Shown one piece after another: positions 34,257 through 38,057 of a stretch of DNA of 64,000 nucleotides; positions within the stretch are counted from its first letter, which is position 1, and each line of letters starts with the position of its first letter. The notes below the pieces were generated by a model. The model saw nothing but the letters and a program-made list of their open reading frames with translations. It was not told where the DNA came from and made no database searches. The stretch is from Curvibacter sp. (GTDB taxonomy: Bacteria > Pseudomonadota > Gammaproteobacteria > Burkholderiales > Burkholderiaceae_C). The position numbers and the translations under genes were made by a program. The stretch is taken from NCBI GenBank assembly GCA_004293725.1, contig REAW01000008.1, forward strand, positions 1 through 64,000, in the 5' to 3' direction.

Positions 34257-34559
34257 CTACCTTGGCATCAGGGTGCCACAGTTCCAACATTGCTGAAATC
34301 CACCCTCTATAAGCTCGCCACAGGTACAAAACCAGCGTTGCTGAGGAACGTGCTGCAGGTCATGCAGCACCTGCTTTGCCCGTGCCTCTTGTTCATTGTG
34401 TATGAACCAGACTTCCGGCAGGCATTGATCCGGGGGCAAGTGGCCCGCGGCACTTGAAAGAAACTGGCGCTGGACACTGGCATCAATGCCCTCTGCGATG
34501 AGCGCGTCTACCCATAGCGTGGCAATAGCCAAATTGGGCGCTTGTGTAAGGCGGGGCAT
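34257..34559 (-). CDS. DUF2007 protein with C-terminal zinc ribbon
   Basis: The protein has 100 aa. Residues 1-60 match the small DUF2007 (putative signal-transducing) fold: NLAIATLWVDALIAEGIDASVQRQFLSSAAGHLPPDQCLPEVWFIHNEQEARAKQVL. Residues 75-97 form a likely zinc ribbon with two CxxC-like pairs (WFCTCGELIEGGFQQCWNCGTLMP). Function is unknown. It was originally divergent from the SOS micro-operon at 36433, before an insertion sequence entered between them. Confidence 0.75.
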   Translation of the reverse strand: MPRLTQAPNLAIATLWVDALIAEGIDASVQRQFLSSAAGHLPPDQCLPEVWFIHNEQEARAKQVLHDLQHVPQQRWFCTCGELIEGGFQQCWNCGTLMPR

Positions 34560-34661
34560 TTGCGTCCCAGTGTAAGCAGATTAAGGATCCAGTCGGCGCA
34601 AAGCAGCAGCAATGGTCAAACGCAGCCAGAGTCTGGAGAGCATTTTTTCTGCCGATCCACA

Positions 34662-34690
34662 TTGCAATCGCCATTTGCTTTGCATATACT
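34662..34690 (+). promoter_or_regulatory. Sigma70 promoter of the disrupted SOS micro-operon
   Basis: TTGCAA (34662-34667), a 17-bp spacer and TATACT (34685-34690) form a good sigma70 promoter pointing right. The -10 overlaps the left half of a LexA box. It is now cut off from its genes (36433 onward) by the inserted element. Confidence 0.7.
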
Positions 34691-34692
34691 GT
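34687..34692 (+). promoter_or_regulatory. Left half of split LexA (SOS) box
   Basis: TACTGT here, plus the 8-bp ATGAAAAG (34693-34700), plus ACAGTA at 36411-36416, rebuilds a perfect 20-bp LexA box with the E. coli-type pattern TACTG-N10-CAGTA. The insertion sequence sits exactly after the 8-bp core, which it duplicated. Neither remaining half site has its partner at the right distance. Confidence 0.8.
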
Positions 34693-34700
34693 ATGAAAAG
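34693..34700. repeat. Target site duplication, left copy
   Basis: ATGAAAAG, identical to 36403-36410. An 8-bp duplication is the rule for IS1595-family elements. Confidence 0.95.
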
Positions 34701-34724
34701 GGCTCTGTTCTTAATACGTATTGA
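34701..34724 (+). repeat. Left terminal inverted repeat of the IS element
   Basis: This is 24 bp, perfectly complementary to 36379-36402. The inner part contains the palindrome AATACGTATT, which could be a transposase contact. Confidence 0.95.
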
Positions 34725-34763
34725 TTTTGTTGTGTTTTCTTGATTTTCGGAAGAGAATCGCTC

Positions 34764-35771
34764 ATGCGCGCTTCTCAGTTCAAGACACTACTGGCAATGC
34801 TACCCGGGCTTAGCCCTGAGCAACTGGCCGACCTGCGCTCTGAGACCGAGCGTATCCACCAACACTCCCGCGCTCTAAGCTCAATTGATGAGGCGATGGC
34901 CGGCGCCGGGTGCCCCCACTGCAACAGCTTCAAGTGCGTCAAGAACGGCACGGGTCGTGGGGTGCAGCGCTACCGCTGCATGGATTGCTCGAAGACTTTC
35001 AATGCGGCAACGAACACGCCGTTGGCTCACCTGCACTCCAAAAAACAATTTTTCCAGCATGGGGAGTGCCTTCAGAAGGGGCTGACCATCAGAGCAACGG
35101 CCAAGGAGCTTGGGGTGTCCGTGAGCACTGCGTTCCGATGGCGTCACCGATTCCTGGAAGCCGTCGTGGGGCACCAACCCAGGGGCGTCACGGGCATTTT
35201 TGAGGCCGACGAAACGTACTTCAGGGAGTCCCAGAAAGGGAGTCGAAAGCTTGTTTCGCCCGAGGACCCCGCCAAAGCTCGACCGCCACGTCGCCACGGC
35301 GGAAAGCCCCCCACCAAGGGCAAGAAGGGCAAGGCGTCCTCTCGGAAAGACCTGGTGCCGGTTTTGGTTGGTCGGCTGCGGGGGCAGCCCTATGTGTCAG
35401 ACCAAACAATGGGGGCCATGACCATAGCCCAAGCCACCGATGCCTTGCGTGGCGTGGTCGGTCCGGGAACTTTAGTCTGCATCGACGGCAGTGCAGCGTT
35501 GCGAGGAGCTGCCAAGTCCCTGGGCGCGGCCTATCACTCGGTGGCGGTGTCCTACGGTCCTCGCGTTGAGGAGGGCGTCTACCACGTGCAGACCGTGAAC
35601 AGCTACCACGAGCGCCTTAAGACCACGCTCAACAGAGTTCGCAGAGGCGTAGCCACCAAGTACATGCCCAATTACCTCGCCTGGATTAGGCTGGACGAGT
35701 GGTACAAGGGCGACCTAAAGCCCGAATACTTCGTCATATCCGGGCTTGGGCGACAGCTAATAAATTGCTAG
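34764..35771 (+). CDS. IS1595-family transposase
   Basis: The protein has 335 aa. An N-terminal zinc ribbon (Cys50-x2-Cys53 and Cys72-x2-Cys75) is followed by a helix-turn-helix (about residues 107-130, AKELGVSVSTAFRWRHRF). An ISXO2-like DDE/N-type catalytic domain then has Asp149 (FEADETYF), Asp241 (VCIDGSAALRG) and the NSYHERLK motif (Asn279, His282, Glu283). A Lys/Arg/Pro-rich insertion (residues 160-195) lies in the catalytic domain. The start at 34764 follows GGAAGAG. The stop overlaps the convergent toxin stop by 4 nt (CTAG), so the passenger genes are tightly fitted to the element. Confidence 0.95.
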   Translation: MRASQFKTLLAMLPGLSPEQLADLRSETERIHQHSRALSSIDEAMAGAGCPHCNSFKCVKNGTGRGVQRYRCMDCSKTFNAATNTPLAHLHSKKQFFQHGECLQKGLTIRATAKELGVSVSTAFRWRHRFLEAVVGHQPRGVTGIFEADETYFRESQKGSRKLVSPEDPAKARPPRRHGGKPPTKGKKGKASSRKDLVPVLVGRLRGQPYVSDQTMGAMTIAQATDALRGVVGPGTLVCIDGSAALRGAAKSLGAAYHSVAVSYGPRVEEGVYHVQTVNSYHERLKTTLNRVRRGVATKYMPNYLAWIRLDEWYKGDLKPEYFVISGLGRQLINC

Positions 35772-36052
35772 AACAGGTCGCTATGGGTTCCCGTTCTAAT
35801 GAGCTTGAGCGTTCCAGAACTGACGGAGCCAACCTTGTCATAGATGAGGAGCCAATCAGGTTCAACGTGGCATTCCCAAGCGCCGGCATATTCACCTGAC
35901 AGCTCATGGTCGCGATGCTTCTTGTCGAGCGGTCGGTCATTCATCAACTCCTTGACGACCGTGCGCATCTTCGTCCAATCGTAGCGCCCCGAGCCCTTTA
36001 TGCGCTTCTTATCAGTCTTAAATTGGCTCGTTTCCTTTAGAACTCTGGGCAT
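35768..36052 (-). CDS. YafQ-family toxin (type II, RelE superfamily)
   Basis: The protein has 94 aa, a ribosome-dependent mRNA endonuclease of the RelE/YafQ group. Residues matching the known YafQ active site are in place: His49, His62 (CHVEPDWLLIY), Asp66, Trp67, His90 and Phe94 (LIRTGTHSDLF). It lies 9 bp downstream of the antitoxin gene on the same strand, in the usual antitoxin-first order. It is inside an IS1595-type element, where it could stabilise the element by post-segregational killing, which is inference. Confidence 0.93.
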   Translation of the reverse strand: MPRVLKETSQFKTDKKRIKGSGRYDWTKMRTVVKELMNDRPLDKKHRDHELSGEYAGAWECHVEPDWLLIYDKVGSVSSGTLKLIRTGTHSDLF

Positions 36053-36061
36053 GCGTCAGAC

Positions 36062-36295
36062 TCAAAGGTCGTCAAGGGAGACCTCAGTCACCTTGTCAGC
36101 CTTCGCCGCCTTGATGGCTGCAAGCGTGGTGGGGTTGGGCCGTGGCATATCAATGGGCAGGCCGCCTTTCTCAACGACGCCGCGCAAAAACAAACGAATG
36201 GCGGTGCTAACGTCCAAACCGACAGCCTTGAGAACGGCGGCGGCCTCCCGCTTGAGCTCTGGCTCAACCCTAGAACGAACATCGACAGTAAGCAT
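36062..36295 (-). CDS. RelB/DinJ-family antitoxin
   Basis: The protein has 77 aa. The N-terminal ribbon-helix-helix (VDVRSRVEPELKREAAAVLKAVGLDVSTAIRLFLRGVVEKGGLPIDM) is typical of RelB/DinJ antitoxins, which bind the operator and neutralise YafQ or RelE toxins. The C-terminal tail (NPTTLAAIKAAKADKVTEVSLDDL) would wrap the toxin. The start at 36295 follows AGGAG with normal spacing. A perfect 18-bp palindrome 24 bp upstream is the probable autoregulatory operator. Confidence 0.93.
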   Translation of the reverse strand: MLTVDVRSRVEPELKREAAAVLKAVGLDVSTAIRLFLRGVVEKGGLPIDMPRPNPTTLAAIKAAKADKVTEVSLDDL

Positions 36296-36319
36296 GGTGA
36301 ACTCCTATGTGTAATACCA

Positions 36320-36337
36320 CAATGTAGCTACATTGTA
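36320..36337. promoter_or_regulatory. Perfect 18-bp palindrome, likely toxin-antitoxin operator
   Basis: ACAATGTAGCTACATTGT is perfectly self-complementary and lies 24 bp upstream of the antitoxin start, in its promoter region. Antitoxins of the RelB/DinJ type repress their own promoter by binding such palindromes with their RHH domain. Confidence 0.7.
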
Positions 36338-36378
36338 GCAGCAACACCTATGTGCAGCAATGAGAGGATTGAACGCCA

Positions 36379-36402
36379 TCAATACGTATTAAGAACAGAG
36401 CC
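36379..36402 (-). repeat. Right terminal inverted repeat of the IS element
   Basis: This is 24 bp, the exact reverse complement of 34701-34724. It is followed directly by the right target duplication. Confidence 0.95.
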
Positions 36403-36410
36403 ATGAAAAG
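36403..36410. repeat. Target site duplication, right copy
   Basis: ATGAAAAG, identical to 34693-34700. It equals the 8-bp core of the LexA box. Confidence 0.95.
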
Positions 36411-36416
36411 ACAGTA
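36411..36416 (+). promoter_or_regulatory. Right half of split LexA (SOS) box
   Basis: ACAGTA, the partner half site of TACTGT at 34687-34692. It lies 16 bp upstream of the first micro-operon ATG (36433). Confidence 0.8.
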
Positions 36417-36432
36417 TTACCGGAGAGTCAAC

Positions 36433-36627
36433 ATGGAAACAAATGAATGGGTTGCAAGGTGTTCTGCCAGACTGCACGCGCATTGGCCCCGGCTTCAGCG
36501 TGAACAGCGCGACGAGGTAGCAAGAGACCTGTGGAATGATCAACGATGGCAGCAAAGGGAACCGGAAGTGGCAGTCGTTGAATGGTTGAGCCAGGGAATT
36601 CCCAAGCCTGTTGGGAGCGAACAATGA
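36433..36627 (+). CDS. Small protein of a formerly SOS-controlled operon
   Basis: The protein has 64 aa and I do not recognise it. It is acidic-basic mixed and unusually Trp-rich (five Trp): METNEWVARCSARLHAHWPRL, then QREQRDEVARDLWNDQRW, then EVAVVEWLSQGIP. Predicted structure is helical, and there is no signal or membrane segment. GGAG at 36421-36424 lies 8 nt before ATG. The upstream in-frame ATG at 36403 lies in the target duplication and would exist only because of it. The rebuilt promoter with LexA box points here. The stop overlaps the next gene (ATGA). Induction by DNA damage before the insertion is inferred. Confidence 0.75.
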   Translation: METNEWVARCSARLHAHWPRLQREQRDEVARDLWNDQRWQQREPEVAVVEWLSQGIPKPVGSEQ

Positions 36628-36728
36628 AACATACCTACACACAGAAGCCCGTTTCCAAGGGCCATTGGAGAATTCCGGTGGGGTTGCCAGGACGTCAGAT
36701 TCTTGTGGCGATTTGGCGCTGGATGTAA
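36624..36728 (+). CDS. 34-aa cationic microprotein coupled to the upstream gene
   Basis: The frame starts with ATG overlapping the preceding TGA (ATGA) and follows GGGAG with good spacing. The product is strongly basic and tryptophan-containing, beginning MKHTYTQKPVSKGHWR and ending with an amphipathic, semi-hydrophobic stretch (GRQILVAIWRWM). It is too short for standard gene calling. Possible roles, all speculative, are a damage-induced toxin-like or membrane-active peptide, or a partner of the 64-aa protein. Confidence 0.55.
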   Translation: MKHTYTQKPVSKGHWRIPVGLPGRQILVAIWRWM

Positions 36729-36764
36729 GGCTTCACCAACAAAGCGCATGTTTTGGTCAATTTT

Positions 36765-38057
36765 TTACGTGCGCAACATGCTATCCAAGTAGGTATCCCA
36801 CGCAAACCCCGGGAATAGTTGGTCCAGTTGGGCATTGCCAACGCCCTGGCTTTTTCGAAGCACTTGGGCCAACACGGCCCTGAAATCGTGATGTACCGGA
36901 AGGTCTCGTCCTTCGTGCAAGTTGCCATTTGCCAGGCCGTCCCAACGGCCATGCCAGCGCCCGCCTTGTACTTGGCTTCCCATGATCCACAAGGTATTTC
37001 CGTGCCCGTGGTCGGTGCCGCGGGTGCCGTTTTCTGCGCTGGTGCGGCCAAACTCGCTGCAAACTACTACGACGTCATGGGGTTGGGAGAAGTCTCGGCG
37101 AAGCTGCACCAAGGCTGTCGCCAGATTGCCCAAGTTTTGGGCCAACGCGCCGGTCACACCTCCTTGGTTGGCATGGGTGTCCCATCCGCCCGCAGACAAG
37201 AAACCCAAACGCAAGCGAGGGTCTTGGCGCATCAGCACTCCCAAATGCTGTGCATCTAGCAGCAGGCCTTTCGCATTGCCAGCCCCATTGTTGGCAGCCT
37301 GCATTTCGCTGGTCTGCATTCCCGAATCCGCCATATCAGAGCGAAGAGTTTCGGCCGTTTGCATGCGGCTTTCTGCCCCAGCACGGAAGGCCTCAGACAC
37401 TTTGTCTTGCCCGGCATACAACTTCATCAGTGCGTCGCGGGTGCGGGCATCGCCAATGGCGCCTTGGCGCGTTGCGGCTTGTCCTTTGGGCACCCGATGG
37501 ACCGGGGCACTGCCGGCCAGGATCAAGGGGTTGGCTTCACCCACACCAATGGCGACCGTTTTTTCTGATCCCCTGGTCGGGTACGTTTCGCCATGTTGCA
37601 CAGCCAGCTTGTTCATCCAGCCGTCTGCGCTGCCACTTTGGCCAGGAAGTCCCATCTCCCAATGACGTTGCGCATCAAAGTGGGAGCGCGTAGGGTCCGG
37701 CGAGCCGGCGCAAGGCAAGGCCGCTAGTACACCTTGTTGCCACAATGGCAAGACGCTTGCCATCGCGGGGTGTAGGCCAAACATGGCGTCAAGTCGCAGT
37801 GCACTTTGGTCTGTTCCGTCTGGTTTGGGAATAGCGATGTTGGAGCGCAATCGATAGTAGTTGGCATCGCCGTGCGGAACCAACGCAGAAAGGCCGTCGT
37901 ACGCCCCACGCAAAAAAACCACCACCAAGCGGGCATCTGTAAGCCCGGCCTGTTGGGTCTGCGCCCACAAGCCCGGGACTGCCCACACCGAGCTTAGACC
38001 CAACATATTCTGAAGCCAAGTGCGGCGGCTGTGGGTAGCGTGCTTGTTATCGGGCAT
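36765..38057 (-). CDS. DUF1501 domain-containing protein, Tat-type signal
   Basis: The protein has 430 aa. The N-terminus HSRRTWLQNMLGLSSVWAVPGLWAQ has a twin-arginine signal. The body is the DUF1501 fold (alkaline-phosphatase-like, sulfatase-related): RLVVVFLRGAYDGLSALVPHGD at residue 43, GWDTHANQG and VVVCSEFGRTSAENGTRGTDHGHGNTLWIMG. These include the conserved His and Asp residues of the metal site. The catalytic activity is unknown. It follows the DUF1800 gene by 12 bp on the same strand, a pairing found widely, suggesting joint export and function. Confidence 0.92.
   Translation of the reverse strand: MPDNKHATHSRRTWLQNMLGLSSVWAVPGLWAQTQQAGLTDARLVVVFLRGAYDGLSALVPHGDANYYRLRSNIAIPKPDGTDQSALRLDAMFGLHPAMASVLPLWQQGVLAALPCAGSPDPTRSHFDAQRHWEMGLPGQSGSADGWMNKLAVQHGETYPTRGSEKTVAIGVGEANPLILAGSAPVHRVPKGQAATRQGAIGDARTRDALMKLYAGQDKVSEAFRAGAESRMQTAETLRSDMADSGMQTSEMQAANNGAGNAKGLLLDAQHLGVLMRQDPRLRLGFLSAGGWDTHANQGGVTGALAQNLGNLATALVQLRRDFSQPHDVVVVCSEFGRTSAENGTRGTDHGHGNTLWIMGSQVQGGRWHGRWDGLANGNLHEGRDLPVHHDFRAVLAQVLRKSQGVGNAQLDQLFPGFAWDTYLDSMLRT

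Follow-up and report, generated by a model that had tools for sequence, protein, structure and literature searches.

Insertion sequence (IS) elements of one lineage within the IS1595 family, carried by Rhodoferax, Polaromonas and related betaproteobacteria, appear to prefer as their landing site a palindrome that resembles the switch of the SOS response, the LexA operator. The family is a known one, but a specificity for this target is new in it. One member is a 1702-bp element in a draft genome of Curvibacter sp. (assembly GCA_004293725.1), which splits a perfect LexA box in the window, by which is meant the whole 64,000-nucleotide stretch analyzed here (contig REAW01000008.1, positions 1 to 64,000). 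It is very probable that the transposase of this lineage favors LexA-operator-like palindromes and does so by reading the DNA directly. The evidence comes from the exact position of the motif relative to the element ends in related copies, the genes that lie beside them, and the absence of the motif from distant family members.

A LexA box split by an IS1595-family element

The insertion site is arranged as follows (window positions, strand in parentheses).

34662 to 34690 (+): sigma70-like promoter TTGCAA-17-TATACT of the putative SOS operon, now reading into the element towards the transposase
34687 to 34692 (+): TACTGT, left half of the split LexA box
34693 to 34700 (+): left copy of the target duplication ATGAAAAG, an 8-bp direct repeat
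34701 to 36402 (+): IS1595-family element, 1702 bp
36403 to 36410 (+): right copy of the 8-bp direct repeat ATGAAAAG
36411 to 36416 (+): ACAGTA, right half of the split LexA box

Removal of the element and one repeat yields TACTGTATGAAAAGACAGTA, which agrees with TACTG-N10-CAGTA at 10/10 positions, and the duplicated 8 bp are the exact core between TACTGT and ACAGTA, just as the first-pass annotation of this DNA had claimed. The rebuilt site also has the form CTGT-N8-ACAG, given in one study as the LexA operator of beta- and gammaproteobacteria (PMC3323433). A LexA matrix was built from 20 boxes of other genomes, 20 of the 23 available being used (L009 and L018, with boxes far from the start, and L017, with the same box as L016, were omitted). 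With this matrix the site scores 25.1 (range of the 20 training boxes, 21.9–32.3), which none of the 399,562 positions examined with it in a 400-kb stretch of Polaromonas glacialis attains. The whole window holds 25 matches to the LexA consensus with two or fewer mismatches, every one with exactly two, which exceeds the 13 expected from shuffles (0/100 shuffles reach 25).

The annotation had also proposed looking for related sites that lack the box and for a host LexA of different specificity. Neither was encountered. The nearest relatives of the gene behind the box (L005, L006 and L007) carry upstream boxes, and the single LexA_DNA_bind match in the genome is a full-length LexA whose recognition region appears to resemble that of E. 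coli LexA, and whose own gene is preceded by two boxes of the usual type, AACTGGTTAAAAATACAGCC and CACTGGATGAGAAAACAGTG.

The sigma70 promoter that had been placed over the left half-box is present as TTGCAA-17-TATACT and is the sole promoter-like match in 34500–36800, but 1.4 such matches are expected by chance, so it is weak alone. The insertion point lies downstream of the −10 hexamer, and a sigma70 consensus scan at the right end of the element revealed no outward promoter. Because the only promoter-like site lies beyond the element and points into it, the loss of SOS control of 36433–36728 that the annotation had predicted would follow from this anatomy.

A target motif in fixed register in related copies

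An initial genome scan gave 11 loci, with relatives in P. glacialis and in the betaproteobacterial metagenome-assembled genomes (MAGs) bin-402 and bin-134. Searching these three genomes and G217 gave 30 loci, and one further one-sided copy came from G876. L035/L065, which represent the Pg2 insertion again, and a 46-bp internal fragment in G401 were excluded before counting, and the final set after removal of repeats comprised 21 sites and 35 flanks (window 1, G217 1, P. glacialis 3, bin-402 8, bin-134 7, G876 1). Fourteen sites were two-sided, nine of them MAG sites that were joined across contigs by the identity of their duplication; the 8-bp duplications are identical in 13/14, those nine included. 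The closest relative of the window element is in G217 (transposase 96% identical, same passenger genes), which is probably Rhodoferax mekongensis, judging from a 96% identical named protein.

In searches with the transposase or with profiles, positive genomes at the cut-offs set numbered 5/399 in the family, 4/103 in the genus, 2/87 in the P. glacialis genus and, with a looser cut-off, 5/89 in the bin-402 genus, while the single positives in the order (1/399) and the class (1/369) were each time the window's own genome. Among viral contigs a single-protein search found no relative and a profile search found 52 loci with a top identity of 36%; phage records gave no match, and 14 plasmid records were found, all below 60% identity.

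Counted from the element end, the trinucleotide CTG occupies exactly positions −12 to −10 in 30/35 flanks, and in 28/33 when the window is left out, against a background of 0.0236 (2.4%; binomial 6e-41). It is accompanied by CAG on the opposite side in 11 of the 14 two-sided sites, and 19/21 sites have the motif on some side. The six bases outside the duplication have the consensus TACTG(T/G), and at position −9 the 35 flanks have 20 T and 10 G (33 and 7 in 40 LexA-box half-sites). The motif and the duplication share one two-fold axis, and this symmetry, like the register, was observed directly; a weak asymmetry is seen in that the duplication starts with A[CT] in 12/17 left versus 5/18 right flanks. 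Whether the transposase prefers such palindromic targets, a question raised in the annotation, is thus answered affirmatively for the near relatives.

The rebuilt sites include TACTGTACGGATGACCAGTA (Pg1), TACTGGTGATGTATACAGTA and TACTGATCAGAAGTCCAGTA (bin-134), GGCTGTACATATACACAGTA (Pg3) and TACTGTATAAATCATCAGAT (bin-402). With the LexA matrix, 6/14 beat all 399,562 positions of the 400 kb of P. glacialis, where CTG-N10-CAG occurs at ∼350/Mb and the best LexA score among those 140 occurrences is 10.3. Five of the 14 fit LexA poorly. At four of these (Pg2, which is inside a TauD-like coding frame, 402_C231, 402_C299 and 134_C24) the LexA score is as low as 0.2–5.7 and the register of CTG...CAG is intact, and 402_C307 (score 7.3) keeps the motif on one side. 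The description of the target as a LexA box therefore holds only in part: the true rule is looser, CTG-N10-CAG with ACTG[T/G] favored, and some hits are not SOS operators.

Distant IS1595 elements as a control

At the 17 resolved sites of distant IS1595 elements (transposases 33–48% identical) the motif was found in 0/34 flanks, and most of the duplications are A/T-rich. Elements with unresolved ends (L081, L292) and partial copies (L087, L090, L095–L097, L291, L296) were left out. Four of the 17 sites are in a Rhodoferax genome, which is placed in the same genus as the window. Because the motif is absent from all of these flanks, some of them in that genome, the preference is a property neither of the IS1595 family nor of hosts with this LexA. 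The suggested preference thus stands for near relatives and fails for IS1595 elements in general.

Some of the distant elements have features of their own. In G879 (L084, L089, L092 and L093; 39% identical), AGAGGC or its complement lies beside the duplication in three of four copies, and this lineage apparently uses a different, asymmetric target in which AGAGGC adjoins a CAAWWWWG-type duplication. L048 and L049 (41–42%) are located in T-rich runs, one of which is the tail of a terminator-like hairpin.

Genes beside the target sites

Seven of the 21 sites, the window operon included, are located before SOS-type genes, which is again a direct observation. Two umuD-umuC operons were hit in P. 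glacialis, one on the chromosome and one on contig C8, with start codons 5 bp from the element. In bin-402 the hit boxes precede imuA and radA, which are 30 and 25 bp behind the element, and in bin-134 they precede parE (46 bp) and a SRAP gene (86 bp). The umuDC genes are established members of the SOS response, while radA, SRAP and parE are likely members, as judged from their boxes. The imuA-imuB-dnaE2 genes are likewise established SOS genes according to one report (PMC3323433).

A single insertion is divided between the two ends of the 40-kb contig C8 (L059 and L062), where both parts show the same duplication and adjoin RepM-like and umuDC genes. This contig is probably a circular plasmid with umuDC among its genes.

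In the bin-402 genus, an empty radA box lies 30–31 bp before the start in 19/27 readable relatives and is lacking in 8/27 (29 loci besides that of bin-402, G400, itself; L327 and L345 were not parsed). The box of L318, ATCTGATGTTTTATACAGTA, differs from ATCTGATGATTTATACAGTA, rebuilt from bin-402, at 1/20 positions. Such conservation of a LexA-like box (L317–L346) suggests that radA is an SOS gene in this genus. In the window's genome a perfect box before umuD is unoccupied, as are those preceding imuA in G217 and recA in P. glacialis, and some other perfect-box matches fall in coding frames.

At the other 14 sites no neighbor with an evident SOS function was found; beside them lie, for instance, an HDOD gene, a XamI-type restriction gene, a TauD-like coding frame, a gene for a TPR protein and an error-prone polymerase gene, the last hit on its 3′ side. 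No common orientation emerged among the seven SOS-type sites: the transposase and the SOS gene are codirectional at two and opposed at five.

Probable targeting mechanism and alternative explanations

The preferred target would be TACTG(T/G)-N8-(A/C)CAGTA, with the cut placed so that its central 8 bp are duplicated on insertion, and a transposase dimer may read the two half-sites, which would account for the shared axis. This optimum would coincide with the LexA operator of beta- and gammaproteobacteria, with the result that SOS promoters would be taken far more often than other DNA. Being short, palindromic and located before several dispensable genes, the LexA operator may be the best natural target. 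In the window, the insertion would part the operator from the promoter and uncouple the operon behind it from LexA, and the promoter, derepressed with half of its operator gone, would read into the transposase gene. Such promoter capture is not general, since the transposase points against the gene in 5/7 SOS-type sites. We infer that the DNA is read directly because several sites keep the motif where LexA should bind poorly.

Several observations weigh against this interpretation. The closest relative, in G217, is inserted in TAGCCTGTCCAATTACATCC and has no motif, nor has 134_C143, and 402_C111 lacks it on one side. Only 3/14 rebuilt sites (window, Pg1 and 134_C226) are within the range of the training boxes, and at Pg1, a umuDC site, the duplications agree at only 6/8 bases. 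Three genomes supplied the majority of the copies, and two of these are MAGs in which contig ends show an insertion from one side only. The comparison covers near relatives and the distant elements (33–48% identical), members of 50–78% identity falling between the two. Moreover, perfect TACTG-N10-CAGTA boxes are no commoner than a reversed control pattern in G399 (1 vs 5), G400 (2 vs 2) and G401 (4 vs 13), and hence a perfect box alone is no proof of an SOS operator in these genomes.

A variant in which targeting is gated by the SOS response is conceivable but doubtful. Here LexA would cover the landing sites, and DNA damage would remove LexA and open the operators together, whereupon the element would jump preferentially into them. 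If so, the element would sense the damage state of its host through its target DNA, the mutagenesis genes umuDC and imuA would be silenced, and in some orientations an SOS promoter would be captured for the transposase.

Four other explanations were considered and rejected. The first, that LexA bound at its operator recruits the transposase, would account for the many sites at genuine or likely SOS promoters and for the six rebuilt sites that are exceptional LexA-like sequences. It is nevertheless improbable, as Pg2, 402_C231, 402_C299 and 134_C24 hold the exact CTG...CAG register despite their low LexA scores, two sites are without any motif, such that hits are not confined to LexA-binding sites, and the base preference at −9 departs from that of LexA half-sites. 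In addition, a LexA dimer presumably spans the duplicated 8-bp core and should block the cut. The second is that the target mimics the element's own ends, which share CTGT with it (ends GGC(T/G)CTGTTC, targets TACTGT), target choice then being a by-product of the end-binding domain. This is likewise improbable, given that L047 has nearly the same end, GGCGCTGTTCGC, and a target without CTG (a single site), and the G1331 elements with ends GGCTCTGTCACC also have targets without CTG. A third explanation, in which insertion is near-random and copies at SOS promoters survive through the dispensability of the genes, gains something from umuDC and imuA being dispensable in laboratory bacteria; it is very unlikely, as survival cannot fix an exact CTG register 12–10 bp from the end that is seen even inside coding frames, and distant IS1595 elements show no such pattern. 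That the window case is a one-off coincidence, as the single copy in the window's genome and a closest relative outside any box might suggest, is hardly credible with the register common to 28/33 independent flanks elsewhere.

The interrupted operon

Two genes lie behind the right half of the split box.

36433 to 36627 (+): 64-aa protein, first gene of the putative SOS operon, separated from its promoter; 28 homologous places
36624 to 36728 (+): 34-aa peptide, second gene; tblastn matches in L005, L006 and L007

The 64-aa protein has no Pfam or NCBIfam family match. Homologs of its gene occur in 22/200 genomes of the family including its own (21 others), with 28 places outside the window, and in 23/28 of these a LexA-like box (≥8/10) is found within 250 bp upstream. 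The three nearest relatives have the boxes TACTGTATGAAACAACAGTA (L005), TACTGTATGAAACTACAGCA (L006) and TACTGTACAAAACAACAGTT (L007). In each of them the 34-aa gene again follows the 64-aa gene, though its conservation is weak in L007 (50, 53 and 36% identity by tblastn for L005, L006 and L007). From this comparison the operon hit in the window is probably an SOS operon. The SelO, DUF2007 and DUF1501 synteny was not seen in the 3.2-kb loci L005–L007, which can be taken as orthologous by the gene pair and not by the wider neighborhood. The 64-aa family (L005–L032, with the 34-aa peptide in the nearest relatives) is widespread, undescribed and of SOS type.

Anatomy of the element and its passenger genes

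The draft genome (2.95 Mb, 82.65% complete) has a single full copy of the window element, which contains the following features.

34701 to 34725 (+): left terminal inverted repeat GGCTCTGTTCTTAATACGTATTGAT
34764 to 35771 (+): transposase, 335 aa (NCBIfam NF033547, NF050000; Pfam PF12762)
35768 to 36052 (−): passenger YafQ-type toxin of a type II toxin-antitoxin pair (Pfam PF15738, 101.4 bits, cut-off 30)
36062 to 36295 (−): passenger RelB/DinJ-type antitoxin (PF04221, 49.6 bits, cut-off 22.4; TIGR02384, 60.1 bits, cut-off 45.65)
36378 to 36402 (−): right terminal inverted repeat

Membership in the IS1595 family is indicated by the family model NF033547 transpos_IS1595 (139.9 bits, cut-off 75), the N-terminal Zn-binding domain NF050000 (49.7 bits, cut-off 28), and the 8-bp duplication with inverted ends of ∼25 bp each. 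The predicted catalytic acidic residues (DET and DG motifs) and N279 are invariant in 30 aligned sequences.

Passenger genes are possible in the IS1595 family, and here the toxin-antitoxin pair, located between the transposase and the right end, may favor retention of the window copy. The G217 element, which matches the window element at 91.7% identity across 1702 bp, also has a YafQ/RelB-type passenger, and the 1084-bp P. glacialis element has none. On a Burkholderia glumae plasmid (L113, 1441–2941), a 1501-bp IS1595-type element has a SnoaL/NTF2-like passenger gene within its ends.

Relation to other elements and significance

The IS1595 family is said to have been described by Siguier et al. 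in 2009. Its members share with the window element the N-terminal Zn-binding domain, 8-bp duplications and inverted ends beginning with GGC, and the window lineage differs from the rest in its LexA-operator-like palindromic target. Transposons of the Tn5053 type, which hunt res sites, also prefer a class of functional DNA sites, but their target is a recombination site and other proteins are involved.

Within the family, ISApl4 (IS1016 subgroup) has A/T-rich 8-bp repeats according to its description (PMC12561309). TnGBS, ISLre2 and part of the ISKra4 group are reported to have Mutator-type transposases and to land upstream of sigmaA promoters (PMC3942029). They resemble the window lineage as DDE transposons aimed at gene-control DNA, but they have a different transposase family and insert 15–17 bases upstream of the −35 in fixed orientation (PMC3942029), whereas the window lineage inserts inside a repressor operator; its window copy is downstream of the −10 and its seven SOS-type sites are of mixed orientation. 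IS elements that target REP sequences also use a palindromic chromosomal target; these are extragenic repeats and not a repressor operator (PMC1525189). In SOS-regulated transposition, such as that of ISCR, the SOS response is likewise tied to a mobile element, but there it controls transposase expression (PMC13393415), while in the window lineage the SOS operator is the landing site. A search of open-license papers found no report of an IS targeting LexA boxes.

No aspect of IS biology is less understood than target choice, and an IS lineage for which a conserved repressor's operator is also the optimal target offers a defined and testable target rule. This rule accounts for the repeated hits on error-prone polymerase operons in these bacteria, suggests a route for the rewiring of SOS regulons, and allows a direct test of whether occupancy by a repressor shields operators from transposition.

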